Shown here: positions 29,269 through 64,000 of the stretch, in pieces
How positions within the stretch are numbered: position 1 is the stretch's first letter
How the letters are laid out: each line of letters starts with the position of its first letter
Assembly (NCBI GenBank): GCA_016800925.1
Contig: JABCPU010000278.1
Span: forward strand, 1-64,000
Length of the DNA: 64,000 nt
From: Suillus spraguei
Lineage: Eukaryota > Basidiomycota > Agaricomycetes > Boletales > Suillaceae
Direction: 5' to 3'
Notes under the pieces: model-generated
The model's input: only the letters and a program-made list of their open reading frames with translations
Told to the model about the DNA's origin: nothing
The model's database searches: none
Made by a program: the position numbers and the translations under genes

Positions 29269-29297
29269 AAGGGTCTGAAAAGGCCCTATTTGCATGT

Positions 29298-37076: not shown

Positions 37077-37080
37077 CCGC

Positions 37081-38040
37081 TGAAACGAAGAAACTAGCGC
37101 TGGCCTAAGTATAAGCGCAGCGTTAATCCTACTAAAGGCGTGAGTGAGATGTTCGACCCAAGAGGACTGCAGATAGAAGCAATTCCTTCTAAGTTAGTGC
37201 AAAGGAAACAATGAAGTACTAAATTGGCTGCGAGGATTCTGATTTCCAAGATTAGTGGCGGTAGTGGTATGTCGGCAGTACTAGCGCGGTGTCAGCGGTA
37301 CACGCGTGGTAACGATAGCTGCAACGGTTAGCTAGCGAGGGCAGGAACAAAGTTGCTTGGGCAAGACGAAATGTTATAACTACCGGTGGTGTGGTAGCGG
37401 TAGCGGCAACTTCCGTACGAGCGGGAACACAGACGAGAGAGAAAGCGACCCAGCGAGATCACTGGCCGCGGTCCGGTTACGAGTAGTGAAGTCGAAAGTT
37501 GCGCGGTACTTCGAGCGGTAAAGTTACCGGCGGTTAAATCAATGAGCGTGGTTTGAACAGAGAAATGTTCAAATGCAAATAGATTGCAACTAGCGAGTGT
37601 TTCTAATACTAAGTCCTAGTGAAGGGATGTAACGGGAAGTAAGTGACGGTATGTATGTTCAGTCCTTTTTAACATATGCAAGCGCGTACGAGATAACTAT
37701 GCGAGTCTGGTAGCGAGAAAGAAAATAAACGGGGTACTTAATTATGAGGCGCGCAGCGTGCAGCGGCCCCTTGAGACATAAGGTAAATCCTGCCGTAGGT
37801 TTAGTAGCAGCGGAAGCGAGGAAACTACGCACCAATGGATTCTAGATGGAATAGAACAGGACATGAGGGCATCAGTGCGAGGATCCAGTAAGGGTTCACG
37901 GAAGAAGAACGGTTCCGCATTAGTGGAGCGAAAAGGCTATTTCATCGCTATAAGGGAATCCTTCGGTTGCCGCCGCAGACGTTAACGAGACGCTTGCCGA
38001 AAACGGGGTTTTGACGGTCAGCGTGACTTTTCTCGCTACA
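37081..38040. mobile_element. Solo LTR of variant A3 in Gy2 RT
   Basis: Starts TGAAACGAAGAAACTAG and ends GACTTTTCTCGCTACA (960 bp). A perfect 4-bp duplication CCGC is at 37077-37080 and 38041-38044. It has many GCGGTA-like words (37258-37530). Its 3' third matches the end of the copy at 54489-55893. Confidence 0.88.
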
Positions 38041-42145: not shown

Positions 42146-43842
42146 TGTTAAGACCAAACTCAAAGGGTAAGAGATCCGAAGGGCTTTGGCCTCAGTTCAT
42201 GCACTGTGCCCCTTTCCCAAGTAATGCCCCTTATTTCAGAGGGAGGATATATGTCTGAAGATCCAGAAGTGGTAGCATAGTGGATCCGGACGTCCGAAGG
42301 TTTCGGATACAACATGTCCGAAGGTTATCCGGTGTAACAAACATATTGGCGCTGGCTTAAAACCCCATATTTTGACACTTGTCTCACGTCTACAGGAGTT
42401 ACCACTAGTCCATGGCCTTCTTACCCCTTTAGCAGTAACCAGCGGCATCCCACACTTACCGCACACCATACCAACTGCTGCACCACATTCCACGAACCAA
42501 TGTCCTTCCATGTCCTTGCCGCGTCTGCATAGCTCCATTTGGTGTGTAGTTTGTTTCCTGTTCGTTATCACTGATTCCACGGCAAGCCTTATTACATGTT
42601 GCCTCGCGCTATGTTTACTTACAGCGGTTACTACACTCCAGCGCTACTGATCTCGCCTAGAGTATTCCGAGTACATACAAATTAGGATATAAGCACCGCA
42701 TACCCCACATGATAGAGCACCTGATTTTACACCATTGCACGTACTATAGGTCAGGATTATTGTCTAGCTCTGGATCAACCCAGTAGTGGACATAGTCTTT
42801 AAAGTTCCCTTATCGCTCGTTAATACATCACACTCATTTTCCGTTACCACCGGCATACCACTGGACTTTTGATTGTTACTTTTGACTGAACTTCTCACGC
42901 TCCGCTACCTTACCGCTGAAAGTACTGCGGACTTCTTTACTGTTTCTTTGCACTGCTCGCAACCTTACCGCTACCGCTGAGACCACCACTCGACATCACT
43001 TGCTAGACACAACTGTTACTGACTTTATCTCGACGACGGTAGCACCGCAACGCATGACGCTAGTTCTGGCAGTATCATCGCTGACCGCGGCAACTTACCG
43101 CTGACTTCGACACTTGTTTCGCAAAATAAGTTAGACTCGAACTTGACCATACTAAATAGGCATCCCCCTTTAGGGTCGAACGCTCTTGTTCTTACAAGTG
43201 AAGCAGATTAGACGGAACGCAAGACTAACATACTAGTTTAGGCAGTGGTTTATCTACAGCCCAAGCTATGTTGTATCTTTACACCGGAACGCGGAGATGG
43301 AATGAGGAATAAGGCTAGTCTCAGAACGAGTCCTTAACTAGAAAATAACAGAGATAGACTACCCAAGGGTAGAGTCGGAGATGTAGACTTATAGAAATAA
43401 ATCCTAAGTCTCGGAAGATACTAGAGTTGGAAGTAACTCAAGTCTGGAGGAACAGAATGAATAGAATCTAAGATGATATTCGAACTAAGGTTCTATGGAG
43501 ATTTACAAGTGATTTATATACTGGAAGTAACTAGCACGGATAATCAGCCAGTCCGGGACCGAGGGCCATGTATGATGTATAACGGAAGTCTATTAGTTAA
43601 TGCACAGCAGTCAGTAAGCGTGAGTCAGAAATGAGACACAGGTAACAGATCAATAAGTGAAGGAAATATACACAGCCGGAATACTGGAGATAGGAGGATT
43701 GCTGAAAGGAGGTAGATGCAGATGTCCACAAGGGAGTTAGAATGCGAGAGGTAGGAACTTTCGATGAGTGATCCGGACAGGATCTGTGGACTGGATGGAA
43801 GTAGGATCGATCAGATCTGAGATCAGAAGTCTGGTATATACA
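42146..43842 (-). mobile_element. Solo LTR-C in the Gy2 5' LTR, itself split by LTR-A
   Basis: Begins TGTTAAGACCAAACTC and ends TCTGGTATATACA. The left flank is AAGAA and the right flank AGAAC; the intact Gy2 3' LTR reads TAAGAACTGG here, so an AAGAA duplication with one lost A is likely. Without the nested LTR-A it is about 746 bp. Confidence 0.85.
42333..43283. mobile_element. Solo LTR-A nested in LTR-C
   Basis: Starts TGTAACAAACATATTGG and ends GTTGTATCTTTACA (951 bp). A perfect 4-bp duplication CCGG is at 42329-42332 and 43284-43287; other LTR-C copies have one uninterrupted site here. Confidence 0.93.
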
Positions 43843-43980: not shown

Positions 43981-44743
43981 TGTCATATACCATACTTCTA
44001 ATCTCAGATCCGACCATATCCGTCCAGATCCGATCGATTTCCATATCCGTCCGGTCCACAGATCCTGTCCGGACCACCCATCCGAATGTGCTCACTTCTC
44101 GCACCTTAACTCCCTTGTGTATATCTGCGTCTATCTCCTTTCGTCATTCTCCTGTTCCGGTATTCCGGCTGTTTATATTTCCGTCCTGTGTTACTGATCC
44201 ATTTCCTGTGTTCATTTCCGATTCATGCTTACTGATCCGCTGTGCATTAACTAATAGACTTCCGTTACACTTCGTACATAGCCCTCGGTCCCGGACTTGC
44301 TGATTATCCGTCTTAGATACTTACAGTATATAAACCACTTGTAGATCTCCGTAGAACCTTAGTTCGAATATCATCTTAGATTCTACTCATTCTGCCTCTC
44401 CGGACTTAAGCCACTTTCCGCTTTAAGTCACCTTCCGAGACTTAGGATTGATTCCTATAGTCTATATCTCCGACTCTATCTTCGGATAGTCCATCTCCGT
44501 TAGTTTCTAGTTAGGAACTCGTTCCGAAACTAGCCTTAATCTCTGTCCTCTCCTTACGTTCCGAATAACCTTCGGACGTATCATATCCGACACCTTCGGA
44601 CACCCGGATCCGTCACGCAACTCCTTCCGGGTCTTCGGACGAATAACTCCTCCCTGAAATAAGGGCATTATCGAGAAAGGGCACAGTGACGAACTGAGGC
44701 CAAAGCCCTTCGGATCTCTCTACCCTTGAGTACAGTCTTAACA
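43981..44743 (+). repeat. Gy3 5' LTR
   Basis: TGTCATATACCATAC to CAGTCTTAACA. A TATATAAA box at 44327-44334 is followed about 30 nt later by AGTTCGAATATC (44361-44372), the likely transcription start. The sequence right after the LTR, GTATATTCAACTC, is nearly complementary to that predicted RNA start. Confidence 0.93.
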
Positions 44744-44792: not shown

Positions 44793-46084
44793 ATGCCTCC
44801 CCGTAAAACTCAAAACACTCTCCGAGGAGCCGGACTTGGTCCGATCCAACGAGATCCCACACCCATCGTCCAAACATTCACCAGTTTCTCTCAACGCCGC
44901 GCAAGCATGAGCGACATAGGTCAAAGTATTTCCGCTCGTCAAGTCAGACCGGATCCGATAACACCAACTCGGAACCCGGATAACCCAGACTCCAATTCGC
45001 GCCCGACCATTCGCTTTGATGATGAGCTGCGCAGTAACCCACCAGATGATGAAGTTGATGATCCGGACAACGAGGACCTGGATGACGAAGAAGATAAAAT
45101 CCACCTGAGCCCTCAGGACCGGGTCCTAGCCCAACTATCCGTAGCCATTAATCACCTCGCTCGCAGTAGCCGTCGCACCCCCACCTCGGATGATAGCAAA
45201 GTCAAAATCCGTGAGCCAGATACCTTCGATGGGTCCGAACCTCGCAAGCTCCGGGCATTCTTCGTCCAATGTGAGCTCAACTTCCAGAGCAAACCTAGCG
45301 CTTTCCGTTCCGGATGCGCTAAAGTCAATTTCGCCCAATCCTACCTTAAGGGTATGGCTCTCGAGTGGTTTGAACCGGACCTCCTTTCGGACGGATATAG
45401 CAACCGTCCAGACTGGATGGATGACTACTCCGAGTTCATGCTCGAGCTCCAAACCAATTTCGGACCACACGATCCCTCCGGAGACGCAGAGATGCAGTTA
45501 GAACAACTCCACATGCGTGACGGACAACGCATCAACAAGTACGTTGTAGAATTCCAGCGACTTGCCTCCCAAGTACGCGAATGGGGAGACGGAGCCCTAC
45601 GACGCCAATTCTACAATGGACTTCCGGCCCGAATCAAAGATGAGATTAGTCGCATGGGTAAGCCCACTACCCTTTCGGAGTTCAAGACTCTCGCCCAGAC
45701 CATCGACGCCCGTTACTGGGAACGGAGGGGCGAAGTCACCCGAGAAGTAGAACCACCTCTTCCAATCCTCCCAGGCAGTCAACATCCGACCGGACGAACT
45801 CCAACTCATCCGGATCCGATACGCCCAAATTCAATAAACCCACATCCTCCACAACATCCTCTGCCCCGAAAGTTTCGGATCTCCCTAGCGTTGTTGGTGC
45901 AGACGGAAAGCTAACCACCCAGGAGCGTCAGAGACGTATTGACAAAAGGCTCTGTATGTTCTGCGGCGGACCTGGTCACACTGCCCGGGAATGCACCAAA
46001 TCCACTTCGCGCGCTGCCAAAGGCCGCGCTACTATGCTCACTCCGGAAACGGAACCGGAAGCCTCGGATGAGGCAAAAAATTAG
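44793..46084 (+). pseudogene. Gy3 gag
   Basis: MPPRKTQNTLRGAGLG opens a 373-codon frame with an acidic linker (about residues 85-105) and a Retrotrans_gag capsid: FDGSEPRKLRAFFVQCELNF, GMALEWFEPDLL, QRINKYVVEFQRLASQV, LSEFKTLAQTIDARYWER. A +1 or -1 frameshift near 45760 moves it into the frame carrying the knuckle CMFCGGPGHTARECT (CX2CX4HX4C, 45955-45997) and a stop at about 46084. Confidence 0.9.
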
Positions 46085-46139
46085 TCCGCGACCCTCCTGA
46101 CTCCGTACGGGATGAGGGTCGCGTTGGCCCAACCCGTGC

Positions 46140-46560
46140 AACGGAACTACGACTCAACGCTGTAACTCTTCCTGATCCGAACTCTCTGTGTCCATATGTC
46201 TCTCTTCCATCTTTCTCCAATATATCTGACTTTCCGGCCCTCATAGACTGTGGTTCCTCCCACTGCTTCATAGACACTGATTTCGTCCGAGAACATAAAA
46301 TTCCTACCTATCAGATTCCTCCGCTTCCACTCCGTTTATTTGATGGTACATGCAATAACAATATTGTCGAGCCATAAACTTATCCGTCCGATTCTCCTCC
46401 GGTGTAATCACTTCCGACACGTTCTACGTCACCCCTTTGGATTCCTCATGTTATATCGTTCTCGGATATAGCTGGCTCACCCGACACAATCCGTTGATTG
46501 ACTGGGTATTGGGCAGCATCGAGTTCCGAACTACTGAACAGGGAGTGCCATTAACCCCAT
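46140..46560 (+). pseudogene. Gy3 retropepsin
   Basis: LCPYVSLPSFSNISDFPALI leads into DCGSSHCFIDTDFV (about 46240-46290); DCG in place of DSG is common in this basidiomycete lineage. After a one-base loss near 46375, which makes a stop, it continues [16 protein letters not shown] and [19 protein letters not shown], the GYxWL..HNP end of the fold. Length and order are normal. Confidence 0.85.
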
Positions 46561-46869
46561 CCGCATCACCGCTGCCTCCGGACACACCGTCCATGGCAGG
46601 AAAATCCAATCCGACACCTCTGTTACCTTCGGGTATTCCACCCAAGGAAGATTCCTCCCCTCCAATATCTCCGTCGCCTCAGAGCACCCCATCCGTGGCA
46701 GAGACTCCGCCTCTGACCAAATCCGAACCCTCCGCTGGTACTCCAGTCCCTAACATATCGTTGATAAACGCAGTGGCCTTTTGCCGTGCCTGCAAGTTAG
46801 AAGGATCTACTCAGTTCAGCATCTACCTCCGTCCCTCCGAAGTAAACCTTCGATCCGCATCCGTATCAT

Positions 46870-48345
46870 CCGATCCTCCAGACCTCTCCAGAATCCCTTC
46901 CGATTACCACGAATTCGCGGATGTCTTCGACAAAGGCAAAGCCGGACAACTTCCCCCACATCGACCCTACGATCTCAAGATTGAGTTGGAAGAAGGGGCT
47001 AGTCCGCCTCTCGGAACCATATACTCTCTTTCTCCGGTAGAGCTTGAGGCCCTCCGGAAGTTCCTTGATGAAAACATCTCGTCCGGACTCCTCCGCTCCT
47101 CATCTTCTCCCCACGGAGCCCCCGTCCTATTTGTCAAAAAGAAGGATGGATCCCTCCGCCTTTGTGTGGATTTCCGCGGCCTTAACCACATCACCAAGAA
47201 AGACCGATATCCGTTACCCCTCATTGCCGACCTTCTAGACTCCCCGAGCCGCGCTAAAGTTTATACCAAAATTGATCTCCGATCTGCATATCACCTCGTC
47301 CGGATAACAGAAGGAGACGAGTGGAAGACTTCCTTCCGTACGCGCTATGGCTCCTATGAATGGTTGGTGATGCCGGAAGGCCTCACGAATGCTCCGGCAG
47401 CTTTCCAGCGCTTTGTCAATAGCGTGTTTGCCGATATGCTGGACGTATGTGTTGTTGTATATCTGGATGACATCCTTATCTATTCCCAAGACCTTGCAAG
47501 TCATAAGGAACATGTCGAGAAGTTTTACGACGTCTCCGTAAACACCGACTATATGCCAAACCCGAGAAATGCGAATTCCATTCATCCTCCGTCGAATATC
47601 TTGGTTACCTCCTATCTCCGGATGGCTTGACAATGTCGTCCGAAAAATCCAGTCTATCATAGACTGGCCAGAACCTCGGAAAGTCAAGGACATCCAATCT
47701 TTCCTCGGATTCGCTAATTTCTATCGTCGTTTCATCTTCAACTACTCGGATATCGTGGTTCCCCTTACTCGACTCACTCGCAAGGGCGTCACTTGGGACT
47801 TTTCCGAGGAATGCCGGAAATCATTTAACGCACTCAAGAAAGCCTTCACGTCCGCTCCGGTGCTAACGCATTGGATTCCGAATGTTCCTATAGTTGTGGA
47901 AACTGATGCCTCGGATTATGCTATCGCTGGAATACTATCCATTGTGTGCCCAGACTCGGAACTTCGTCCGGTGGCATTTTACTCCCGGACACTGTCCGGT
48001 GCAGAACTCAACTATGATGTCCATGATAAGGAACTACTAGCCATCTATGCTGCATTCCGAACCTGGCGCCATTACCTAGAAGGCTCGTCCGAGCCTATAG
48101 ATGTTGTCACGGACCACAAGAACCTTGAGTATTTCTCTACCACCAAACTGCTATCCCGTCGTCAGGCCCGCTGGTCCGAGTTCCTCATCAGTTCAACCTC
48201 GTTATCCGTTACCGTCCTGGAAGACTCGGAGTCAAGCCAGATTCCCTCACTAGACGATGGGACGTCTACCCTAAAGAGGGGGATAAGGACTACGCTCAGA
48301 TTAACCCTCACAACCTCCGTCCAATATTTGCTTCGGAACAATTAG
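46870..48345 (+). pseudogene. Gy3 reverse transcriptase and RNase H
   Basis: RT motifs in order: [92 protein letters not shown] (F changed to E), [11 protein letters not shown] (catalytic YLDD at about 47455-47475). A frameshift lies near 47530, then IQSFLGFANFYRRF. RNase H follows: VVETDASDYAIAGIL, VHDKELLAIYAAFRTW, VVTDHKNLEYF. A second frameshift lies near 48195. Confidence 0.93.
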
Positions 48346-48401
48346 CTTCGTCCCTACGAGCTTCCATTTTAGCAACTCCGGTCCTTAGAGCAGCTGTTCT
48401 T

Positions 48402-49640
48402 ATGGACACCGAACACCTCCGGAAAGACATTCTGATAGCACTCCCTAATGACCCCATTGCACAAACACATTTTCCGGTTCCTTCAGATCCGAGATGGACA
48501 ATAGACGATGGTGGATTCCTTTGTTGTGACAACCGCATCTACGTTCCGGATACCAATGATCTACGACTTCGCATCCTCCGGAATTGCCATGACCACCCCC
48601 TATCCGGACATTTCGGACAGAATCGTACTCTCGAGCTCATCCGACGCAACTATACCTGGCCCGGAGTACGAGCCTTTGTCAAAGAGTATGTCAGATCCTG
48701 CACATCCTGCGCCCGAGCCAAAGTTCCGAGACATAAGCCCTACGGTCTACTCAAGCAACTTCCCGTCCCAGAAAAACCATGGAATTCCATCTCTATGGAT
48801 TTCATTGAACAACTTCCGGACTCATCCGGCTTTACAGCCATCCTCGTCATCATAGATCGTTTATCCAAGCAAGCCATATTCGTCCCGACCCACGACACCA
48901 TTACTTCTCCTGATCTCGCCCGCCTATTTCTCCTCCATGTCTTCTCTAAGCATGGAGTCCCGTCCCATGTAACCTCGGATCGAGGAACAGAGTTCGTATC
49001 CCACTTCTTCCGTTCCTAGGAAAGGCATTGGACATGGTCCTACACTTCACATCCGGATATCATCCCGAAGGGACGGACAAACAGAACGTGCCAACCAAAC
49101 GCTGGAACAGTACCTCCGGATCTACTGCAACTATCAGCAGGACAACTGGTCCGAGCTGCTGCCCCTCGCAGAGTTTGCATACAATAACGCTCCGAGTGCC
49201 ACTACCGGAGTTTCACCTTTCTTCGCCAATAAAGGTTATCATCCGAACATTTCCATCCATCCGGAACGCGACCTATCCTCCATCCGTGCCCAGGAATATG
49301 CCCTAGACCTTAACAAACTTCACCAGTTCCTCCGAGATGAGATGTCCGAAGCTCAGAAACGCTATCAAGGACCGCGGACGCTAAAAGACAGCCTGCTCCA
49401 GACTTCCGGATTGGAGAACAAGTCTTCGTCAAAGCCAAGTACTTCCGCTCCACTCGTCCGTCGAAGAAACTTTCGGAAAAGAATTTGGGACCATTCGAAA
49501 TTATATCCCGCCCGGGTACTCATTCTTTCGCCATCCGACTTCCGGATTCTATGCGTTCCGTACATCCTGTTTTCCATGTCTCGCAGTTAGAGCCAGCAGT
49601 TCCGAACACCATTCCCAATCGCATCCAACCTCCTCCGCCA
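48402..49640 (+). pseudogene. Gy3 integrase
   Basis: Zinc-binding domain HPLSGHFGQNRTLELIRRNY with CTSCARAK, then core residues SMDFIEQLPDSSG (first Asp) and VTSDRGTEFVSHFF (second Asp). A frame break gives a TAG at 49017-49019; in the next frame SGYHPEG and the Glu region follow, then PLAEFAYNNAPSATTGVSPF and the C-terminal GPFEIISRPGTHSFAIRLP and VHPVFHVSQLEP. All expected modules are present. Confidence 0.92.
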
Positions 49641-49868
49641 CCAGTCGAAGTCGACGGAGAACCAGAGTACGAGATATCCGAAATCCTGGACTCTAAACTG
49701 GACCGTCGTAGGCACCACTGCCAACTTCTATACCTCGTCCGTTGGTCCGGATACGAAGGAACGGACGAAGAAACTTCCTGGTTACTGGCCACAGAACTCG
49801 GAAATGCATCAGATCTCGTAGCGGATTTCCACTCAGCATATCCGGACAAGCCTGGTCCCATTGCTTGA
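49641..49868 (+). pseudogene. Gy3 chromodomain
   Basis: Immediately after VHPVFHVSQLEP the protein has EYEISEILDSKLDRRRHHCQ, LLYLVRWSGYEG and TSWLLATELGNASDLVADFH: a chromodomain with the aromatic Y and W positions (YLVRW, SW). It ends at 49868. Such domains recruit the integrase to methylated H3 chromatin. Confidence 0.92.
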
Positions 49869-49925
49869 AAAGTACATAACGAAATATAAGTACATTGAGG
49901 GCAGTAGCGGAAATCCGGATCTGGA

Positions 49926-50932
49926 CTAAGCACCAGTCTCCATTTCACCTCCGGCACCCCCAGTCTCCTCCCCAGTCCCATCCGCCATCTCTTCCCCAGT
50001 CCATCCGCCATCTCCCCTCCATTCTCATCCGCCACCTCTTCCCCAATCTCCTCACCAGCGCCATCCTTGTCGGATCCGGCAGAAACGGAAAGCCTAAATC
50101 CGGTCCGGATTTCCTCGATGAGCAGGGCCTGGAATTCCCTCTGTTGCTGGAGGAAGGCCTCCATGGTGGAGCTCATCCGCTCCATGGCAATCCGACTCCC
50201 TTCCGCCGCCGCAATACCATCTTGGAGAAGTCCGTTGGTCCGCGCCAACTCAGCAATGATGCCATTAGCAGCGGCCACCCAAGCCTGATCATCGTACTCC
50301 ACAAAATCCTCATCCGTACCTTCGATAGTGACTGGATTAGAGAAGACATCCGCGTCCGCCACATCCGGAGTAGGACTCCTCTGACGGCGCTTGCCTTTGC
50401 CCTTCGGAGACGGAGTACCAGCAGGACGCTGCCTCTTCCGGCCCTTAGGCCCCTTAACGAATCCGGGCCTTCCAGGACAAGTGGCCTTGTCCTTCCGGCA
50501 GACGTCACAGGACTTAATCTACGAAACGTCGAAATCAGCGGATCCGAAGTTTTCGGACGACTCACCATGGCATTCTTCTCAGCATCACCCCACTGGCACA
50601 TCCGGCCCTTAGTGACGCAACGGAGCAGTACCCATCCTTTGCTCCAGACGCAGGAGCAGCCTTGGCCTTTGCCAACCATTAATATCCGGATCTGGAGAGT
50701 CCACAGCACTCACCCGAGCCTCAATCAGTGCCTCCGCCTCTTTCCTCCATTTCCCTCCGGATCTCCGCCAACTCAATCTGCTTCAACTCCTCCTGCCTTT
50801 TCCGCTCCTCCGCCTCTTTCCGTTCCGTTCCGCCTCGGCTTCCGCTGCAGCCTTAGCAGCCGCCAGTTGCTGCTCCAGATCCGCCACAAGGTCAGCAGCA
50901 GACTTAGGGGCATCGGATTTCTTTCCAGACAT
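49926..50932 (-). pseudogene. Antisense spliced gene in Gy3: coiled coil plus Zn2Cys6-like cluster
   Basis: Start MSGKKSDAPKSAADLVADLE at 50932, then an Ala/Glu/Arg-rich coiled coil (QQLAAAKAAAEAEAE, RQEELKQIELAEIRREME). Two putative introns, 50713-50667 and 50565-50519, are both 47 nt with GTGAGT starts and AG ends. Between and after them lie CSRCVTKGRMC-like and CDVCRKDKATC motifs, each CX2CX6C, 13 residues apart, followed by a basic patch (GPKGRKRQR) and an acidic tail ending at a TAG at 49926. Four single-base frame breaks are visible in this copy (near 50820, 50740, 50625 and 50002). Likely a nuclear or DNA-binding accessory protein of the element; function unknown. Confidence 0.65.
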
Positions 50933-51114
50933 GTTAGGAGACAAGTTTTGTTAACAAGGATATGAAGTGGGGGTAGGAATCATTTCGGACGTCTGACGTC
51001 CGTATATCTGTTGGATTACAGACTCAGCACTACAACCATCAAACTTCCCCATCGTCTCGCATTAATCTTGTCCGATCCGGATCGACGCTTCTTGTGCCTC
51101 AGGGGTTCGGCCCT

Positions 51115-51126
51115 AAGGGGGGATAC
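51115..51126 (+). promoter_or_regulatory. Polypurine tract of Gy3
   Basis: AAGGGGGGATAC directly before the 3' LTR, the expected plus-strand primer. Confidence 0.85.
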
Positions 51127-51891
51127 TGTCATATACCATACTTCTAATCTCAGATCCGATCATATCCGTCCAGATCCGATCGTTTCCATATCCGTCCGGT
51201 CCACAGATCCTGTCCGGACCACCCATCCGAATGTACTCACTTCTCGCACCTTAACTCCCTGGTGAACATCTGCGTCTATCTCCTTTCGTCATTTCTCCTA
51301 CTACCGGTACTCCGGCTGTTTATATTTCCGTCCTGTGTTACTGATCCGTTTCCTGTGTCATTTCCGATTCATGCTTACTGATCCGCTGTGCAATAACTAA
51401 TAGACTTCCGTTACACTTCGTACATAGCCCTCGGTCCCGGACTTGCTGATTATCCGTCTTAGATACTTACTGTATATAAACCACTTGTAGATCTCCGTAG
51501 AACCTTAGTTCGAATATCATCTTAGATTCTACTCATTCTGCCTCCTCCGGACTTAAGCACTCTCCGCTTAAAGTCACCTTCCGAGACTTAGGATTGATTC
51601 CTATAGTCTATACCTCCGACTCTATCTTCGGATAGTCCATCTCCGTTAGTTTCTAGTTAGGAACTCGTTCCGAAACTAGCCTTAATCTCTGTCCTCTCCT
51701 TACGTTCCGAATTACCTTCGGACGTATCATATCCGACACCTTCGACACCCGGATCCGTCACGCAAACCCTCCGGGTCTTCGGACGAATAACTCCTCCCAG
51801 AAATAAGGGCATTACTTGAGAAAGGGGCACAGTGTACGAACTGAGGCCAAAAGCCCTTCGGATCTTTCTACCCTTGAGTACAGTCTTAACA
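51127..51891 (+). repeat. Gy3 3' LTR
   Basis: TGTCATATACCATAC to CAGTCTTAACA, 765 bp, colinear with the 5' LTR apart from scattered substitutions and small indels (for example CCCTTGTGTATATC versus CCCTGGTGAACATC). Confidence 0.93.
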
Positions 51892-52016: not shown

Positions 52017-53110
52017 TGGAGTGCCAAAACTTGAAACCCAAAACTTGAAACTCACAAAGTGTGAAGTACCAAGACCCGGGACCCAAAACCCTGGATACAG
52101 TTTCAAGTTTCAAGTTTCAAGTTTCAAATTTTGGGTTCAGGGTTTAGGGTTCGGGTTCCAGCACAAGGCACTTGTTACATTGCCAGGAATTCAGGATTTG
52201 GGTTCCAGGTTTTGGTACTTGACACTCGGTGAACTGTATAAGGAAATAGAAATTTTACATGATACAGATTTGTGCGAGTTTCAAGTTTCAAGTTTCGGGG
52301 TTCGAGGTCTGCACTCGGCACTTGTTACATTGCCAGAAATTCAGGATTCGGGTCTCAGTTCTTGGTACTTGACACTTGGTGAACTGTATAAGGAAATAGA
52401 AAATTTACATCTTAGACATCTTTGCGAGTGTCAAGTTTCAAGTTGTAAGTTTCGGAGTTCGGGGTTGTGTTCCGGCACTCGGCACTTGTTACACTGCCAG
52501 GAATTCGGATTTGGGTCCGGGTCTTGGTACTTGACACTCGTGAACTGTGCAAGCATATCAAAATTTTACATGATACACATTTTTGTGAGTTTCAAGTTTC
52601 AAGTTTCAAGTTTCGAGGTTTGGGGTTCGGGTTCCAGCACTCAGCATTGTTACATTGCCAGGAATTTGGGGTCCGGGTCCGGGTCTTGGTACTTGACACT
52701 CAGTGAACTGTGCAAGGAAATAGAAAATTTCAATGATACAGATCTTTGCAAGTTTCAATTTGAAGTTTGAAGTTTGAAGTTTTGGGGTTCGGGTGCGGCA
52801 CTCGGCACTTGTTTACATTGCCAGGAATCAGGATTCGGGTCCCGGGTCTTGTACTTGACACTCGGTGAACTGTGTAAGGAAATAGACATTTTACATGATA
52901 CACATTTTTGTGAGTTCCAAGTTCCAAGTTTTTAAGTTTCGAGGTTCTGGGTTCGGGTTCCGGCACTTGGCACTTGTTACATTGCCAAGGATTCATGATT
53001 CGGGTCCTGGTCTTGGTACTTGACACTCAGTGAACTGTGTGAGGAAATAGGCATTTACATGATATACATTTTTGCAAGTTTCAAGTTTTGAGTTTTGAGT
53101 TTCAGCTTTT
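52017..53110. repeat. Tandem array, about 150-165 bp period, six units
   Basis: The marker CTTGTTACATTGCCAG occurs at 52171, 52321, 52485, about 52645, 52808 and 52973. Each unit also has GGTACTTGACACTCGGTGAA and a run of AAGTTTC heptamers. The 249-codon frame at 52021 is a by-product of the array. Confidence 0.92.
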
Positions 53111-53989: not shown

Positions 53990-54440
53990 TACACATGGCC
54001 CACCCGTCTATATTTTATACCACCCTTGGCCCACCCGTCTGATATAATATACTGTACAACACCCTCGGCCCACCCGTCTAATACAATATTTTATATAACA
54101 CTCTCGGCCCAACTGTCTAATATGTGTCTGGGCCCACCCGTGTATGTGATAACAAGTAACCTTCACATACCTGTCTACCTGATACACATCTACCTTGGTA
54201 CACCCATCTACATAATATCTAACTACCTTGGCCCATCCGTCTACTGGATATTCATGTACATCGGCCCACTCATCTACTCTACATATTCCTTGCATGGGCC
54301 CACCCGCCGTCATCGGGAATAATATTCCTCCCAGCCCATCCGTCATGAACGAGGATATTTCTACCATGGGCCCATGGTCCGCTGGCCCGTATCATACGGG
54401 ATATTATGCATGTCCGCTCACTCGTATAATACGGAGATAG
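53990..54440. repeat. GGCCCACCCGTCTA phased repeat
   Basis: About eleven copies of GGCCCACCCGTCTA or close variants (53997, 54028, 54067, 54105 and onwards to 54383), 26-42 bp apart, separated by AT-rich spacers such as TATAATATACTG. Confidence 0.8.
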
Positions 54441-54454
54441 TTCACTGTAATATG

Positions 54455-54488
54455 TGCTCAAACTCTGTCTCTTCTGCGGTGGACCTGG
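54455..54488 (+). pseudogene. Gag zinc-knuckle scrap, Gy3 type
   Basis: Encodes LCLFCGGPG, nearly identical to the Gy3 knuckle start, cut off by the following LTR-A. Confidence 0.6.
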
Positions 54489-55893
54489 TGTAAAGATACA
54501 ATCTAGCCTGGGCTGTATATAAACCACAGCCTAAGCTAGTATGCGAGTCTTGCACTCTGTCTAGTCTGTTACAATCGTACGTGCCCCTATTCATTTTCTT
54601 ACTTCATTTACCCTGTATATTACGTAACATGATTCCGACTCATATGCTCAACGCATCTGTACTATAGTTGCCTTCCTTCTTTGGATACACACTTACATTC
54701 TCACGTCTCTACTGGTCTGTGCGCACATATTGGCCTATTTAAGCACAGTGTACTTGTAGTAGATTCACTACTTTAATCTTACTGGGTTTTACCTGGAATC
54801 CCCTTCGCTTAGGTCTCCAACCTAAGTCGTCTTGAATCGTCTCTAAGTCTAAGCACTCCTTAGCCTTAGTCTCTATTCTCGCGGATACCTCTTAGACTTG
54901 TCTTTGAGGCTGAACCCTTGATCGTACTTGGAACGCGTTCCTTGTACTTTCACCTTGTCCTCTTCTGGACATTGTAAGAACTCCCAGCAGACCGCCTGTG
55001 TCTTTTCACTGTCGCTGGTGACGCCATCCCAGTTCGTAACATAGTCTGCTTCACTTGCAAAGCAAGAGCATTCGACCCTAAAGGGAATGCTAAGTTAATA
55101 TAGTCCAATAATGCCCAACCTGTGGTGCGAGAATGCCGTCGGAGGTAGTGAGATGCTAGCGGTGACCTCCGGTCCGTGGGAAACTAGCGGTAATACTAGC
55201 GGTAAGCGCGGGAAAGCGGTAGACAAGCGGTAGCGAAAGTGGTAAAACTGCGGTAGTGCGTGCAGTAAAACTGCGGTAAGGCGTGGGAAACTGGTGGTAA
55301 AACAAGCGGTGAAGCATAGCGATGAAGCGCGGGAAAGCATAGCGCAAGTGGTGAAGCATGGGAAAGCGGTAAAGAGCGGTGGTGCATGCAGCAGTAAAAC
55401 AATTCTTAAGAGACAGTAACTTTGGCGAAAGACTTCATTCCATTAGAGACAGTAGTGGTGACAGTTCCTAAGTACCATGTGTACCATCGAGGGAAAAGTA
55501 AAAGTACCGGAATGTGCGAAGAGTCCTTTTTAACATGTAGCGTGAACAGCCAGAACACATAGCGAGAACGGTAGCAAAATAAAGATGTACTCTGTGATTT
55601 TTAGTGAAGAGGCATGCAGCGAGCAAGTGGTGTCACAGAAGGTAAGGTAAGTCTTGCCGTAGCTTTAGTAATGGCGGAAACAAATATGCTACACACCAAT
55701 GGATCTAGACAGACAGGAGGACATCAGTAGTGAGATTTGATAAGGGGCAAGGATCCACAGAGCAAAAATGGTACTGGCAAAGTGAAAAGGGGTAATGCTT
55801 GCTATAGGGGATTTCTTGGTAGCTGCTGTAGACAGTAACGAGACACTTGTGTAAAATGGCACTTTCATTGTCAGTGTGACTTTGTTTGCTACA
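54489..55893. mobile_element. LTR-A2/A3 copy with nested LTR-B
   Basis: Starts TGTAAAGATACAATC and ends GACTTTGTTTGCTACA. Its beginning matches the copy at 2122 and its end matches A3 at 38040, showing that the two variants are one family. GCGGTA words are dense at 55190-55395. Left flank CTGG and right flank GTGC do not match, and the two sides belong to different elements. Confidence 0.8.
54577..55041 (+). mobile_element. Solo LTR-B in LTR-A2
   Basis: Starts TGTTACAATCGTACGTG and ends CCCAGTTCGTAACA (465 bp). A perfect 5-bp duplication TAGTC is at 54572-54576 and 55042-55046. Confidence 0.93.
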
Positions 55894-56310
55894 GTGCATT
55901 GTCAGAGTCTTGAACTCTGCAATGTAGTCCGTAAGAGTGCCAGTGTGTTTGACCTTGGCGATCTTTGCCATAGTGTCAACCTTCTCATTGTGGGGGTTGA
56001 AGGCGCTCTTGAAGTCCTTCTGGAAGTCTTCCCATTTGCTGAACTGGGGAGGGTTGGTCTTGTAGGCTTTGGCATAGGCATTGAGCACCCAAGTACGAGC
56101 AGTGCCTTCTGTCATATAGGACAGGGCAATGCAGACCCAGTGTTCGTCAGTGGGGTAAAGCATTCTGTTCAACCCAAGGTAGGTCATCACGGTGTATAAC
56201 CAATGCATGGCGTCGGTTGGGTCACCATTGAACTTAGAGGGCATTCCTGCCTTAAGTTTGGGTCCAATCGCTTTAGCGACGGGAGCTGTTGTTGCTGTGG
56301 AGCCAGACAT
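55894..56310 (-). pseudogene. Gypsy-type gag capsid fragment
   Basis: MSGSTATTAPVAKAIGPKLK at 56310 is followed by GMPSKFNGDPTDAMHWLYTV, GTARTWVLNAYAKAYKTNPP, FQKDFKSAFNPHNEKVDTMA and LTDYIAEFKTLTMHC. This is a Retrotrans_gag capsid (FNGD, W..F...F.P...A..L..). It is cut at 55893 by the LTR-A copy, before any knuckle. Confidence 0.8.
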
Positions 56311-56515
56311 GATGTTGTTCTGGGTTCAGGGTGCATGGTCATGAGCTGTCTTGCTTCAGCAGTGGGGGTAGGAAGGCAATGTTGGTGCATGCATTCCTCA
56401 AGGGGCTAAATTCAGCGTCCTCTTGTCAGGGTTCAGGGTTCAGGGTCGAGTGTCCTATCTCAGCTAGCTGGGCAGCATAGCAAGTAAAAGGTAACTTGAA
56501 TCTTTTGTTAGCGAC
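56311..56515. other. Gag upstream region
   Basis: Holds a short AGGGTTC repeat (56425-56447) and no clear coding sequence; ends at an LTR-F. Confidence 0.4.
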
Positions 56516-57356
56516 CTAGCCAGACACTAAGGAACTTGAGTGGTGTCTGCGACGGGCGCTCTATCAAGAGTGGCAGCCCGTGCGTATTGGTCTTCTAATG
56601 TGGAGTGCACTAGTTGCATCAGTCGGAGGTGGGCACTATGCGCTGTCTCACGACCTACATCACTGAGATGAGCTTCTATAAAGTTCGAATAGTGACAATA
56701 AGCTTATGAAAAGCTTATCGAAGGAAGTTCAGGGTCGAAGATCAAGTAGATTCAAGTTAAAGAAGTACAAAGGCTATCTGTGCATATTTATACATAAGAT
56801 TGAAGCAGAGCACGAATATGTAAGTATTGCTAGATTAAGTATGAAGTCAGATAGCCAATAGGAAGACACATGCTCACAGATGAGTCAGAGGCATATGAAC
56901 CAATGAATGCACACATGTGCAAAATGGAGTCATAGGTGCGGAGCTGAAGGTATAAAAGGTACGAGCCAATGAGGTGACGCATGAGTCATAGGTAGATGCA
57001 AAGGAAAAGATAAAAGGAAATATGACACCAGACATAGTCCTTGAGCCAGAGGGCTGTTTGTGTGAACCAGGGGATAGTGCATGTTGAAGCGCAGGGGAAG
57101 GCGTCAAATGCAACAGAGGTGTTTGAGATGTAAGAAGTGCGGGGAGCATGAAGAGCATACATGAGTGTGAGGGGTACTGGAAGAGTGCACATTTAGTGAC
57201 GATGGAGGAGGCGAGCATAGGTGAGGTAGGGAGTGACGATGGCAAGCCAGATGAGATAGTGGAGGATGATGATGGAGGCCTCGTCAGGACGAGAGTAGAT
57301 GGCGATGCATAGGAGGAAAAATGATAGTAGGGGCGCAAGAAGGTGTTCTTGTAACA
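56516..57356 (-). mobile_element. Solo LTR-F
   Basis: Begins TGTTAGCGACCTAGCCAG and ends GGTGTTCTTGTAACA (841 bp), the reverse complement of the copy at 60030-60916. AATCT occurs near the left edge and directly at the right edge, a probable 5-bp duplication with two extra T. Confidence 0.8.
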
Positions 57357-58803
57357 ATCTGCATTCATACTGCCGTAGCGCTATGCAGGCATGTAAGGGT
57401 CTGCTGTACTGTGGAACAATAGTTGGTGGACAACTAGTGGTGGTAGGGGCGCTTTGTCATCTGCTGCAAGAGTGTATGCCGGTAGCCAATAATAATCCTT
57501 CTAGCTGCGGTAAGGCTAGGAACACAGTATGGCCTGGTAAGACCATTGTCTTTGTGCAGTAACGCAGCAGTTGACACACAGCGGTAGGCATGTGCGGTCT
57601 GCAAGTTCAGCTGAATAGCTCCTGTGGTGAACGTTTCTTTAGATGTCAGCGGTAAACGTTGCTTCTGCAGTAGGCATCGGTGCTTCTACTATACTATACC
57701 TTTCCAGTGATACTTCCATAACTTCTTCACTATCAGTGCTAGCATTCTGTGGTACTTTGTCTTGAGAGCACTCAGGCTCTGTGACCATCAGGAGTTCTGC
57801 CAGTAAAATGTCAGTGCTAACCAAGTCAAATGCCGTTTCATCTGTTTCTTCTAGCGAGCAGTATGCGTCACTGTCTGTATAAATGGTGCAAAACTGTTAA
57901 GACCATACTCAAAGGGTGAAGGATCCGAAGGGCTTTGGCCTCAGTTCATGCACTGTGCCCCTTTCCCGAGTAATGCCCCTTATTTCAGGGAGTAGGTATA
58001 CGTCTGAAGATCTGGAAGGAGTTGTGTGGTGGATCTGAACTTCCGAAGGTTATCTGGAGCATAGGGATGGAATGAGGATTATGGCTAGCTTCAGAACGAG
58101 TTCCTAACTAGAAACTGACAGAGGTAGACTATCCGAAGATATAGTTGGAGATATAGACTTTAAAGGAATCAATCCCAAGTCTCGGAAGATGACTAGAGCA
58201 GAAAGTGACTCAAGTCCAAAGGAAGCAGAATGAGCAGAATCTAAGATGATATTTTAACTAAGGTTCTATGGAGATCTACAAGTGATTTATATACTGTAAG
58301 TATCTAATACGGATAATCAACAAGTCCGGGACCGAGGGCTATGTACAAAGTGTAATGGAAGTCTATTAGTTAATGCACAGCAGATCAGTAAGCATGAATC
58401 GGAAATGAAACACAGGTAACAGATCAGTGACACAGGACGGAAGTATACACAGCCGGAATATCGGAAACAGGAGGAATGACGAAAGGAGATAGAAGCAGAT
58501 ATACACAAGGGAGTTAGAGTGCAAGAAGTGGGCACATTTGGATGGGTGATCCAGACAGGATCTGTGGACCGGACGGAAATAGAATCGATTGGATCTGATC
58601 AGATATGGTCGGATCTGGGATCAGAAGTATGGTATATGACAAAAATGCAGTTTCATCAGTATAGCATGGTTCATTCAGGGACTAACTTTGATTGAGCACT
58701 TGGACTGGCAAGGGTGCCATATCCTCGTGCAGTAGTGCTGTGGGTAGCATAGCGGTGTCTGTACTTGGTGCCATTAACAATAGCTGAACCGCTGGTAGTG
58801 CGG
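57357..58803 (-). pseudogene. Retrotransposon polyprotein remnant, unclassified
   Basis: Around the solo LTR-C at 57895-58641, the minus strand has fairly long open stretches (TEPECSQDKVPQNASTDSEE at about 57760, LLHEDMAPLPVQVLNQS at about 58700) that join across the LTR. Composition is like a gag-protease linker. I do not recognise a domain. Confidence 0.4.
57895..58641 (-). mobile_element. Solo LTR-C
   Basis: Begins TGTTAAGACCATACTC and ends GGTATATGACA (747 bp). Flanks are AAAAC and AAAAT, a 5-bp duplication with one C-to-T change. Confidence 0.9.
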
Positions 58804-59396
58804 TGTAAAGATACAACCTAACCGGGGCTGTAGATAAACTACCTCCTAAGTTAGTATGTGTGGTCTTGCACTCCATCTAGTCTGCTTCACTTGCAAAGCA
58901 AGAGTGTTCGACCCTAAAGGGGGATGCCTGTGAGTATAGTCGAGTCCAAGTCAAACCAGTGAGTGAAAGTAGCGCCATAGTCAGTGGTAAGTTGCTGTGG
59001 TCAGCGATGATGCTGCCGGAACTAGTGTCGTATGTAGCGGTGCTACCATGGTTGAGAAACACTTGAAAATGTAGCATCAAGTGAGTGATATCAAGCAGTA
59101 AAGTCAGCAGTAGCGGTAAGGTTGCGAGCGGTGCAAGGAAACAGCACAGAAGGCCGCGTTACTTTCAGCAGTAAAGTAGTGGTGCATGAGAAGTTCAGTA
59201 AAAATAGCAATCAAGAGTCCAGCGGTATGCCAGCGGTAACGGTGAAAGAGCGAGATCGATTAATGAGCGGTAAAGAACTTTAAAGACTAAGTCTACTACT
59301 GGGTAGATCCAGAGCTAGACACTAATCCTGACCTATAGTATGTGCAATGGGGTAAAATCAGGTACTGTATCGTGCGGGGTACGCAGTGTAAAGATT
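58804..59396. mobile_element. Partial LTR-A, first of two in tandem
   Basis: Starts TGTAAAGATACAACC after GCGG. It runs for about 593 bp of the family sequence up to GGGGTACGCAG, where a second copy begins. The remaining third is missing downstream. Confidence 0.8.
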
Positions 59397-61221
59397 CAAC
59401 CTAACCTGGGCTGTAGATAAACTACCTCCTAAGTTAGTATGTGAGTCTTGCGCTCTGTCTAGTCTGCTTCACTTGTGAGAACAAGAGCATTTGACTCTAA
59501 AAGGGGATGCCTATTAGTATGGTCAAGTTCAAGTCAAACTTATGTGCGAAAGAAGCGTCATGGTCAGCGGTGATGCCGCTGGAACTAGCGTTGTGTGTAG
59601 CGGTGCTACCATGGTCGAGATATAGTCAGAAACAGCTGCATCGAGCGAGCGATGTCGAGCGATGATATCAGCAGTAGCAGTAAGGTTGTGAGCGGTGTGA
59701 AGAAACAGTAAAGAAAGCCGCGGTACTTTCAGCAGTAAAGTAGTGGTGCATGAGAAGTTCAGTCAAAATAACAGTCAAAAGTCTAGTGGTATGCCAGCGG
59801 TAATGGAGAACGAGCGTGATAGATTAATGAGCGATAAGGAAACTTTAAAGACTATGTCCACTACTGGGTAGATCCAGAGCTAGACAATAATCCTGACCTA
59901 TAGTACATGCAATGGTGTAAAATCAGGTACTGTATCGTGTGGGGTATGTGGTGCTTATATCCTAATTTGTATGTACTTGGAATGCTGTAGGCAAGATCAG
60001 TAGTGCTCAACTGTAGTAACTGCCATATGTGTTACAAGAACACCTTCTTGCACCCCTACTATCATTTTTCCTCCTATGCATCACCATCTACTCTCATCCC
60101 AATGAGGCCTCCATCCTCATCCTCCGCTACCTCATCTGGCTCGCCATCGTCACTCCTTACCTCACCTACACTCGCCTCCTCCATCGTCGCTGAACACGCT
60201 CTCTTCACGTGCCTTCTACCTCCTCCATGCCTATACATGCCTCTCTCGCTTTGCACGCTTCAAGCGCCTCCTCTGTGCTCATCACATCACCTTGCGCTTT
60301 AACATGCGCACCCACTCGGTTCACGGGGAACCTCTGTCTGCCTTCAAGGACGTCTTGGTATCGTGTTATGCTTTATCCTTTTACCATTTACCTTTCTTGA
60401 CTTGTGCGTTGCCTCATTGGCTCGTACCCTTTATACCTTCGGCTCTGCACTTATGACTCCTTCGTGCACATGCGCATTCTCATTGGTTGATATGCCTCTG
60501 ACTCATTTATGAGCATGCGTCCTCTTATTGGCTATCTGACCTCATACTTAATTCAGCGATACTTATGTGTTCGCACTCCACTTCAATCTTACGTATAAAT
60601 ATGCGCAGATAGCCTTTGTACTTCTTTAACTTGAATCTACTTGATCTTTGACCCTGAACTTCTTTCGATAAGCTTTTCATAAGCTTATTGTCACTATTCA
60701 AACTTCATAGAAGCTCATCGCTTCTACATCTTTGATCGTCATCAAGAACCTCGTCTCTGTGATGTAGGTCATGAGACAGCGCATAGCGCCCACCTCTGAC
60801 CAATGCAACTAGTGCACTCCATGCTAGGAGACCGATACACATGGGCTGCCACTCTTGATAGAGCACCCGTCGCAGACACCACTCAAGTTCCTTAGCGCCT
60901 GGCTAGGTCGCTAACAGTATGTAAACATAGTGCGAGGCACTGTGGCACAAGGCAACATGTAATAAGACTTGCTGTGGAATCAGTGATAACGAACATAAAA
61001 CAAATGATGCACCAAATGGAGCTATGCAGACATGGCAAGGACATGGGAGGACATCGGTACATGGAACATGGTGCGGTAGTTGGTATGGTGTGTGGTAAAC
61101 GTGGGATGCCGCCGGTAATGCTAAAGGGGTAAGATGGCCATGGACAAGTGGTAACTCCTATAGACATGAGACGAATGTCAAAAGATAGGGTTTTAAGCCC
61201 AGCACCAATATGTTCGTTACA
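59397..61221. mobile_element. LTR-A, second of two in tandem, holding LTR-F
   Basis: Starts TGTAAAGATTCAACC and ends AATATGTTCGTTACA. Without LTR-F it is about 933 bp. Left flank GCAG, right flank CCGC. In an intact LTR-A the left site reads ACGCGGTGC, so it entered at GCGG. Confidence 0.82.
60030..60916 (+). mobile_element. Solo LTR-F nested in LTR-A
   Basis: Starts TGTTACAAGAACACC and ends GGTCGCTAACA (887 bp). Flanks are ATATG and GTATG, a 5-bp duplication with one change. Confidence 0.85.
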
Positions 61222-61796
61222 CCGCTGTGTGTAACACAACTCTGCTGGGGGGCAGATATATGTTGAATGCTGCCTAGCTGCTATTCAACCCAAGGGTTTC
61301 TGGTCCAAGGCTCAGCTCAGAAGAGTAGTAAAATAATCATTCAAACAGTAAGTCTCAGACTCCTACTGCTAGTGGTGAAGTGGTGTAAAGACAGGTGCAA
61401 GGTAAGGTTCTTATGTAATCAGCCAAAATGCGGACCTAAGGTAAGGAAAGCCTAAGTAAGAGACACTATGCAAAAACCACTCTTTTAAGGTCAGCCTGAG
61501 TTTGTCTGTTACACTGCTATTAAGTGGTGGCTTGAGATAACACTTACCACGCACCACCCACAGGATCCTTACAACATCAAAAAGGTATATGAAGTGGCAA
61601 TCTTTCTTTTACCAAGTACCTCTATGGTTGTAATGGCATCGGCTTCCTAGCCAGCATATGCTCAATCTTCTACCGCTCAACAGGTGTCTCCACAACCACA
61701 GATGCAACCAGCCAATCCTGGCATTGTGATCAAGCAAGAGTATGCACAGTATGCCCCCATCATGTGCCACTTCTGCAGTGGTCTGCTGTAAAGATA

Positions 61797-63111
61797 CAAT
61801 CTAGCCTGGGCTGTAGATAAACCATGGCCTAAGCTAGTATGCAAGTCTTGCGCTCTACTTAGTCTGCTTCACTTGCAAAGGCAAGAATGTTCGATCCTAA
61901 AGGGAATGCTAAGTTAATATAGTTCAATAATGCCCAACCTGAGGTGCAAGAATGCTGTTGGAGGTAGTGAGATGCTAGTGGTGACCTCCGGTCCGTGGGA
62001 AACTTGCGGTAAGCGTGGGAATGCAGTAGGCAAGCGGTAGCGTGAATAGTAAAACTGCGGTAAGCATGGGAACTTCTGCGGTAAAACAAGCGGTAGTGTA
62101 GCGGTGAAGCATGAGAAAGTGGTAGCGCTAGTGGTGAAGTGTGGGAAAGTGGTAAAGAGCGGTGTAAAGATACAACCTAGCTTGGGCTGTAGATAAACCA
62201 CTGCCTAAACTAGTATGTGAGTCTTGCGCTCCATCTAGTCTGCTTCACTTGTAAGAACAAGAGTGTTTGACCCTAAAGGGGGATGCCTATTAGTATGGTC
62301 AAGTTCGAGTCTAACTTATGTGCAAAACAAGTGTTGTGGTCAGCGGTAAGTTGCCACAGTCAGCGATGATACCGCCGGAACTAGCATCGTGTGTAGCAGT
62401 GCTTCTGTGGCTGAGTTAAGGTCAGTAACAGTTGCGTCGAGTGAGTGATGTCGAGCGGTGGTCTCAGTGGTAGCGGTAAGGTTGTGAGCAGTGCAAGGAA
62501 ACAGTGAAGAAGTCCATGGTACTTTCAGTGGTAAAGTAGCGGTGCGTGAGAAGTTAAGTCAAAGTAACAGTCAAAAGTCCAGCAGTATGCCAGCGGTAAC
62601 AGAGAATGAGCGTGATAGATTAACGAGCGATAAGGAAACTTTAAAGACTATGTCCACTACTGGGTAGATCCAGAGCTAGACAATAATCCTGACCTATAGT
62701 ACATGCAATGGTGTAAAATCAGGTACTGTATCATGCAGGGTACACAGTGCTTATATCCTAAATGGATTAACACGCAACAGACATGTAATAAGACTGCACT
62801 ACAGTTTACAAAACATCACGTACCGGTGAGACTGGATGGACATTGGACAGACGGTAAATCTTGCTTGAGGATACCAAATTGGTTCACAGAGATTGCTGAA
62901 GATCACTGCTTTGTGGGAAAGTTGCCGCAGTACAGCCGCTAAGCTGCAATGAGGCTTCCGGAGTGCGGAACAATACTGTCAGATAGGGGTAAACACATGG
63001 TAAAGTGGTACATCATAGGATGGTGAAGCCAAAGGGTAAGGATAATGATTGCCGGTTGACACCTGTATGAAAATGTGCCGTTTCAAGCTCAGCATGAGTT
63101 TGCTCATCACA
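61797..63111. mobile_element. LTR-A2 in the Gy4 gag knuckle
   Basis: Starts TGTAAAGATACAATC and ends TTGCTCATCACA. Flanks are CTGC and CCAC, both one CpG transition from CCGC, which restores an in-frame Ser-Gly-Pro-His. It is split by a truncated LTR-A at 62163. Confidence 0.82.
62163..62762. mobile_element. Truncated LTR-A nested in LTR-A2
   Basis: Starts TGTAAAGATACAACC right after GCGG inside the host GCGGTA array, and breaks off at CTTATATCCTAAAT. After that the host resumes near its 3' third, so a deletion removed parts of both. Confidence 0.8.
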
Positions 63112-63371
63112 CCACATAAGATGCTGGATTGTGCGGTCAAGGAAGCATACATACACAATGGTAAGATAATTAATAGGAATGGGTGCATAGTTCTGCCTAA
63201 CAGCAATATGGTCCCTTGTCTCGGTCTTAATTTCCAACAAAGTCTTGACTGTATGACAAGCGAAAGCCCCGCTATGGGAGCCAACACTACGGTATTGGGA
63301 AACTTGTACTGCTGAGTAGAACATGGGCATGATGTGCTCAACATCATCAATCCTTCTGCTTTCTTGCACAC

Positions 63372-63805: not shown

Positions 63806-64000
63806 CACACTAACACTGTTCACAGGACAGACGCTGAAATAGAGCGCACTAATGACCTATGTCTAGCACAGGATTTTTACAATGCTAATGACACTGACAC
63901 TTATGCTACTAGGAAATCTGACAAGGGAAAGACTGTGCGGTTTGATGGTGTCGAGATGCTGCTGAGACCTAAAGCAGGACCATCCTCTAAGGCTGCTGAC

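Follow-up and report, generated by a model that had tools for sequence, protein, structure and literature searches.

An intron-bearing antisense gene with a GAL4-like cysteine cluster and candidate target sites in a Suillus chromovirus

A Ty3/Gypsy chromovirus of Suillus spraguei carries, between pol and its 3' LTR and on the opposite strand, a gene with two introns whose reading frame is under purifying selection and whose product has a cysteine cluster resembling that of GAL4-type (Zn2Cys6) regulators. The LTRs, gag-pol region and antisense gene of the same element are saturated with the tetramer TCCG and its complement CGGA. Our preferred reading, to which we give a probability of roughly 0.6, is that the element encodes an antisense regulator that binds its own CGGA sites and keeps its copies expressed, as an activator or an anti-silencer. 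Throughout, the window means the whole stretch of DNA that was analysed, 64,000 nucleotides in length.

The host element had been taken for a chromovirus from its sequence, and Pfam searches agreed: Retrotrans_gag, RVT_1, RNase H, integrase and Chromo were matched in this order, with the chromodomain last. Its features are listed in Table 1. The two LTRs differ by 20 mismatches and 12 gap openings across 772 aligned columns. Chromodomain and antisense gene lie tail to tail, with 57 nt between their stops in the window copy. Suillus belongs to the order Boletales. Among the LTR elements of five Boletales, chromoviruses are the most abundant, according to the main text of PMC5689174. The window also holds further LTRs of this family, whole or in pieces, at 2737-3496 (-), 32993-33761 (+), 57895-58641 (-) and 43285-43819 (-), with identities of 81-94% and all TCCG-rich; a tandem array with units of about 150-165 nt just past the 3' LTR (52142-53059); and an ORF with a HET (heterokaryon incompatibility) domain at 8315-9322 (-).

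Table 1. Features of the chromovirus and its antisense gene in the window copy
Feature	Position	Strand	Remarks
5' LTR	43981..44743	+	TCCG-rich, 25 seen vs 5.9 expected
gag and pol region (gag, RT, RNase H, integrase, SH3-like, chromodomain)	44793..49868	+	frame-broken in window copy
Chromodomain ORF	49485..49868	+	stop 57 nt from antisense stop
Exon 3: second CX2CX6C (50509-50477), basic patch, conserved DDQAWVAAAN/AELARTN core, acidic tail, TAG stop	49926..50518	-	
Intron 2	50519..50565	-	47 nt in window copy, GTGAGT...TAG, in inter-Cys linker
Exon 2: first CX2CX6C (50627-50598)	50566..50666	-	
Intron 1	50667..50713	-	47 nt in window copy, GTGAGT...AAG
Exon 1: ATG, charged coiled-coil-like region (by eye)	50714..50932	-	
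Leader, likely promoter of antisense gene	50933..51126	-	low inter-copy divergence, about 0.011-0.019 across most
17-bp inverted repeat CGG-N11-CCG	50986..51002	.	53 nt before antisense ATG
3' LTR	51127..51891	+	TCCG-rich, 25 seen vs 5.4 expected

The sequence-only reading had described an antisense protein that starts with MSGKKSDAPK and carries two CX2CX6C motifs 13 residues apart, a basic patch and an acidic tail. All of these were found in the window and are intact in another genomic copy, L036, whose spliced product would have 305 residues. Both introns described there, bounded by GTGAGT and AG, were likewise read in the window sequence, the second falling in the linker between the two CX2CX6C blocks as had been stated. 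The number of frame breaks in the window copy did not stand, comparison with L036 giving five exon indels rather than four. The coiled-coil-like character of the charged region in exon 1 is a reading by eye.

A search of the genome with the antisense product returned at least 150 protein matches. Many of the 102 loci that were fetched overlapped one another in place, and 58 distinct antisense sequences were obtained; L041 and L042, of a diverged family, were set aside, and 56 distinct aligned copies remained. After removal of both introns, 34 of the 56 were open from ATG to stop over three exons, every one of them with GT...AG, and 22 were not open. Three copies that were rearranged or cut (L043, L056 and L060) were left out of the counts that follow; in the alignment, neither the ATG nor the GT of intron 1 is present in two of them, L043 and L060. 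Among the other 53 copies, intron 1 measures 49 nt in 46 and intron 2 measures 48 nt in 50, so that the length of 47 nt reported earlier for both is true of the window copy and not of most others. None of the 16 splice-site positions (donor hexamers and acceptor AGs) varies, compared with 35 of 81 positions elsewhere in the introns, and the six cysteines are unchanged in all 53 copies. The gene is probably transcribed and spliced at these sites. Three copies share an in-frame deletion of 24 nt (8 codons) within a repeated EEMADGTG-like stretch of the acidic tail in exon 3.

Whether this is a real accessory gene or a chance frame had been tied beforehand to a dN/dS comparison of other copies. 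These retain the frame and the introns, and the antisense gene gave a pN/pS of 0.153 over the 34 open copies (561 pairs; 95% codon bootstrap 0.102-0.221), which sustains the claim. The 34 copies were picked for openness, a choice that does not alone depress missense change, and the 53 copies taken without it gave an omega-like value of 0.26 when singletons were counted and of 0.21 for changes shared between copies. By comparison, exon 3 returned 1.89 and 1.53 when read in its two remaining forward frames, and 1.67, 1.62 and 0.23 in its reverse frames; the last value is low because the wobble positions of that frame oppose those of the antisense frame. The chromodomain ORF of pol, used as a yardstick, gave 0.076 (26 distinct open ungapped copies, from 64 loci). 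Between families, omega in exon 3 was 0.13 for L036 and L102, 0.22 for L036 and L041 (dS 1.9), and 0.49 for L041 and L042, both of which look decayed. A chance frame was rejected on the ratio of 0.153 together with the frame controls. A sense-strand ORF at 49895-50965 was also rejected as the selected gene, since the reverse exon 3 frame that is stop-free in L036 is the one at 1.67 and the frame at 0.23 has two stops there.

The gene keeps its place in the element across the genome. At 123 or more of the 150 chromodomain places listed, an antisense match lies within 1.8 kb on the downstream side, which was the side examined, and is convergent with the chromodomain; no downstream match in the other orientation was found within 1.8 kb of these 150 places. 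At least 121 of the 150 listed antisense places adjoin a listed chromodomain, and the median gap between the two matches is 56 nt. The gene also occurs at the same place in the family of L041, where protein identity is about 51% for exon 3 and 74% for the chromodomain, and a GTGAGT...CAG intron again separates the two Cys blocks at the identical point; an in-frame stop in exon 1 means that L041 is not intact. Splicing at the inter-Cys intron agrees with the annotated protein P0015 of L042, encoded on contig C467 (98-99% over its two aligned pieces), and another annotated protein, P0008, seemingly reads through that intron. The ratio of observed to expected CpG is 0.29-0.39 in L041, L042 and L102, compared with 0.81 in the window antisense gene and 1.06-1.23 in the window LTRs and gag-pol, and the low values reflect CpG decay of older copies.

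Protein databases yielded 9, 68 and 105 relatives at E-values up to 0.001, 0.01 and 1, respectively. All relatives that bear an organism name are from Suillus (11 species), and no other genus appeared among the named relatives in this word-based search, in which up to 8000 candidates were scored. The annotated relatives include P0003 and P0007, from Suillus tomentosus or S. occidentalis. IMG/VR gave no relatives of the antisense protein, and PDB gave none that was convincing for the whole protein and none for the Cys region of L036. One relative, P0073, carries the UniRef name Zn(2)-C6 fungal-type.

Fungal Zn2Cys6 clusters have the spacing CX2CX6C-X5to16-CX2CX6to8C. The antisense protein shares with this family (GAL4-type, PF00172) six cysteines in two CX2CX6C blocks, the CDxCRxxKxxC signature with its conserved lysine, the basic patch and the coiled-coil-like region. 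Both blocks are present in 15 of 115 sequences, many of the others being fragments, and in all 15 the linker is 13-15 residues long, within the Zn2Cys6 range. A profile search, proposed with the sequence-only reading, had a divided outcome: for the L036 protein Pfam gave no match at E≤1, whereas Zn_clus was matched at E≤10 by 15 of 25 relatives, one of which (P0007) scores 21.2 against a curated cut-off of 21. The resemblance to a Zn2Cys6 cluster holds for the spacing of the cysteines and not for the order of the halves, which appears to be the reverse of that in GAL4; the Suillus protein differs further in being encoded by a retrotransposon, in antisense.

The C-terminal block aligns to positions 1-18 of the Zn_clus profile and to GAL4 9-23, and its profiles match the first half of GAL4 with an E-value of 0.0016. 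At E≤10, Zn_clus is matched by eight of the 12 C-terminal pieces; the first of them covers positions 2-18 with a score of 22.4 bits (cut-off 21). The N-terminal block corresponds to Zn_clus 16-34 in P0015 and to GAL4 24-41 as a second, weaker stretch. Taken alone, it found no PDB match, and among its 12 pieces Zn_clus was matched by one (E 0.0052), PSI_integrin by two (best E 0.00034) and copper fist by one. When compared by anchored BLOSUM62 scoring, all 13 members preferred the swapped order, mostly through the C-terminal block; for the N-terminal block, the second half of GAL4 was favoured (2.2 vs -9.2), and against a LAC9 piece of 12 positions the second half was not favoured (-3.6 vs -0.2). 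In Zn2Cys6 proteins the DNA-contacting half comes first; here the block that resembles it sits C-terminal, and the assignment of the N-terminal block is weak. The halves appear to be swapped, which is well supported for the C-terminal half and moderately for the N-terminal half.

Within the C-terminal block, the lysine of CDxCxxxK is invariant in all 12 aligned pieces and the aspartate nearly so. This lysine is at the position of GAL4 Lys18 (K18), a residue in contact with CGG. An arginine follows the second cysteine of the block in 49 of 53 copies, with tryptophan in L036. The cluster would presumably bind zinc.

CGG is the usual half-site of GAL4-type zinc clusters. Over the 7.9-kb element, TCCG occurs 192 times against 54 expected from dinucleotides, and CGGA 103 times against 37. 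In each of three parts TCCG leads all tetramers in over-representation: the LTR (25 vs 5.9, at most 11 in 200 shuffles), gag-pol (105 vs 33.8, shuffle maximum 53) and the antisense gene (32 vs 6.9, with no shuffle above 14); the gap at 50933-51126 shows no excess (3 vs 1.0, maximum 4). The density of TCCG climbs and drops near both ends of the element, and the rest of the window, with pieces of the family masked, holds 89 TCCG where 89.8 were expected (5 shuffles). The mask covers a diverged LTR at 27971-29720 that was itself recognised by its TCCG peak; unmasked positions 1-40000 hold 125 vs 91. The excess is shared by the family's further LTR copies in the window (14 vs 3.1, 21 vs 4.3, 9 vs 2.2 and 8 vs 2.0). 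Because CGGA is thus accumulated in the element, a feature absent from the sequence-only reading, the DNA-binding role proposed there gains support, and CGGA is a candidate target of the antisense protein.

The excess does not come from codon usage. TCCG falls in the three codon phases 30, 29 and 23 times, with no marked preference, and shuffles of synonymous codons matched the observed total in 0 of 500 trials for five frames and in 3 of 500 for the integrase frame. The same shuffles revealed no excess in any of six control frames taken from the window, two of which belong to another Gypsy element. Codon usage was rejected as a cause on this ground, and also because the LTRs are in excess too. 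The second Gypsy element that served as control lies at 13620-18220 (-), has 37% identity in the integrase and 43% in the chromodomain, and is without TCCG excess.

The alternative that survives best is that the words arose from biased mutation or copying of the element and have nothing to do with the protein, whose regulatory target would instead be another one (in the host). We regard this as doubtful yet worth weighing, and it overlaps with the other readings of the gene. In its favour, the excess of TCCG tracks the strand of the element and not the coding strand, and CpGs inside the motif are no better kept between copies than others (0.074 changed in TCCG/CGGA vs 0.058 in other CpGs). It is also favoured by a diverged LTR-like stretch at 27971-29230, beginning TGTCATATACC, which has 33 TCCG vs 6.7 expected; its body has no blastn match to the element's LTR, and no antisense gene is linked to it here. 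At least about 40 copies of this stretch were scored in the genome, and it contains a CTCCG tandem stretch whose region is variable among copies. Another repeat family, at 54000-64000 and with no known matching protein, is rich in CGGT (59 vs 21.4), so word excess may not be unique to the chromovirus or may have other causes. GCGGT-rich pieces of this second repeat, on one strand, were also seen at 2000-3000, 20000-21000 and 36000-38000, and at about 2045-2990 of L102. Against a copying bias, the excess survives both dinucleotide and codon shuffles, in both orientations, and TCCG is in excess in the diverged, gene-bearing L041 and L042 (CpG observed/expected 0.29), with 13 vs 4.3 in the one, a count that the highest of 200 shuffles also reached, and 9 vs 2.9 in the other, above the shuffle maximum of 7. 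CGGA is within the shuffle range in these two (6 vs 3.2, maximum 9, and 5 vs 2.7, maximum 7), and TCCAGA, the transition product of TCCGGA, exceeds the shuffles (10 vs 1.4 and 5 vs 0.8).

The leader of the antisense gene contains a candidate control site. The inverted repeat CGG-N11-CCG between the 3' LTR and the antisense ATG is exact in 40 of 53 copies, the remaining 13 differing from it by C-to-T or G-to-A changes only, and its spacing is that of GAL4 sites; it is possible that the repeat controls the gene. Divergence per site is about 0.011 for 51000-51149 and 0.019 for 50950-50999, compared with 0.008-0.020 over the greater part of exon 3 and 0.03-0.04 near where pol ends, and the proximal 120 nt of the leader stand at 0.020 vs a pS of 0.071. 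A GAL4-like fixed spacing of CGG pairs was rejected: no one spacing stands out, CGG-N11-CCG itself being found 8 times vs 2.4 expected (shuffle maximum 10).

As we picture it, the antisense gene with its two introns would be read towards pol from the gap beside the 3' LTR. Its product of about 305 residues would combine the coiled-coil-like region, a half-swapped GAL4-like binuclear zinc cluster, the basic patch, the conserved core and the acidic tail, and would act in trans on copies of its own family through CGGA sites, densely set over the full length of the element. Copies so bound would stay expressed, by activation or anti-silencing. We favour these two outcomes because the sites are spread over the whole element, like a self-marking system and in line with the logic of the VANC anti-silencing proteins (PMC5735166, PMC10398659). 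The strand bias of 192 TCCG vs 103 CGGA counts against self-binding, as a plain double-stranded site does not require it. A more specific version is tentative: that the permuted GAL4-type cluster serves sequence-specific anti-silencing, the protein coating CGGA in LTRs and coding genes so that the whole element may be one self-marking binding array. Our odds for the preferred reading and its rivals overlap and need not sum to one.

HBZ of HTLV-1 is a bZIP protein, spliced and expressed from the promoter of the 3' LTR, and is thought to restrain the virus. In a similar way the antisense protein or its transcript might limit the element, through binding of the LTR or interference with the convergent pol transcript. 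The tail-to-tail layout with its short median gap suits such a restraint, as do HTLV-1 HBZ and HTLV-2 APH-2, nuclear proteins that LTR elements encode in antisense (main text of PMC11963269), although HBZ is a bZIP protein of an animal retrovirus and no homology is claimed. We consider restraint unlikely: mere transcriptional interference needs no protein constraint as strong as that found, and the sites are spread through the coding region rather than confined to the LTRs. A structural or integration partner, which would coat the DNA of the element or tether integration complexes to chromatin, the CGGA excess then serving as a signal for packaging or assembly, seems to us rather improbable. 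The basic middle part and the coiled-coil-like region seen by eye, the presence of sites along the entire element and a strand bias that fits nucleic-acid packaging are in its favour, but TCCG and CGGA are both enriched, so that recognition of a single strand alone is insufficient, and the element already has a chromodomain integrase. Finally, a chance or decaying frame, or a captured fragment of a host gene without function for the element, is very improbable, for although the window copy is broken and 22 of 56 copies are not open, it is contradicted by the selection tests (0.153 vs more than 1.5 in the other forward frames of exon 3), by the place of the gene beside most of the listed chromodomains, and by the conservation of intron and core in the family at about 51% protein identity.

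To our knowledge, antisense accessory genes of LTR elements are on record chiefly from plants and retroviruses, and for most of them no function has been established. In the plant elements Retand, Grande and RIRE2, accessory ORFs in antisense lie between pol and the 3' LTR; the Retand aORF, present in 97% of Retand clusters, has a probably DNA-binding product of unknown role (main text of PMC11963269). The Suillus ORF has the same position and orientation, at no fewer than 123 of the 150 listed chromodomain places. It differs in that Retand, as that text presents it, is a non-chromovirus lineage with TRP28, whereas the Suillus case is a fungal chromovirus gene with two introns and a GAL4-like cluster; the word 'intron' is absent from the main text of PMC11963269. 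TRP28 was not seen among Pfam results, L036 being without a match and the domain being absent from the best 25 of 36 families for the relatives.

VANDALs are DNA transposons. The likeness to VANC of the Arabidopsis VANDAL elements would be that a transposable element encodes a DNA-binding protein, putative in Suillus, and that its own DNA has accumulated a short motif (PMC5735166 and PMC10398659). VANC motifs lie in non-coding tandem repeats, by the account in PMC5735166, whereas the Suillus excess is found in coding and non-coding DNA and in genes of both strands, with no preferred codon phase for TCCG; the two are likened by description and not by sequence. In open-access literature, judged by titles and abstract openings, no fungal antisense gene of this kind and no permuted Zn2Cys6 cluster was found, and the words 'antisense' and 'accessory' are absent from the main text of PMC5689174.

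Members of this antisense gene family are listed as 'hypothetical protein' in the protein sets of Suillus, which calls for caution in annotation. The fungal case brings together strong selection, conserved introns, a recognisable if rearranged DNA-binding cluster and a candidate target within the element itself. A permuted Zn2Cys6 cluster, if true, would be a structural novelty, and the candidate target makes the role of an antisense accessory protein directly testable by binding.
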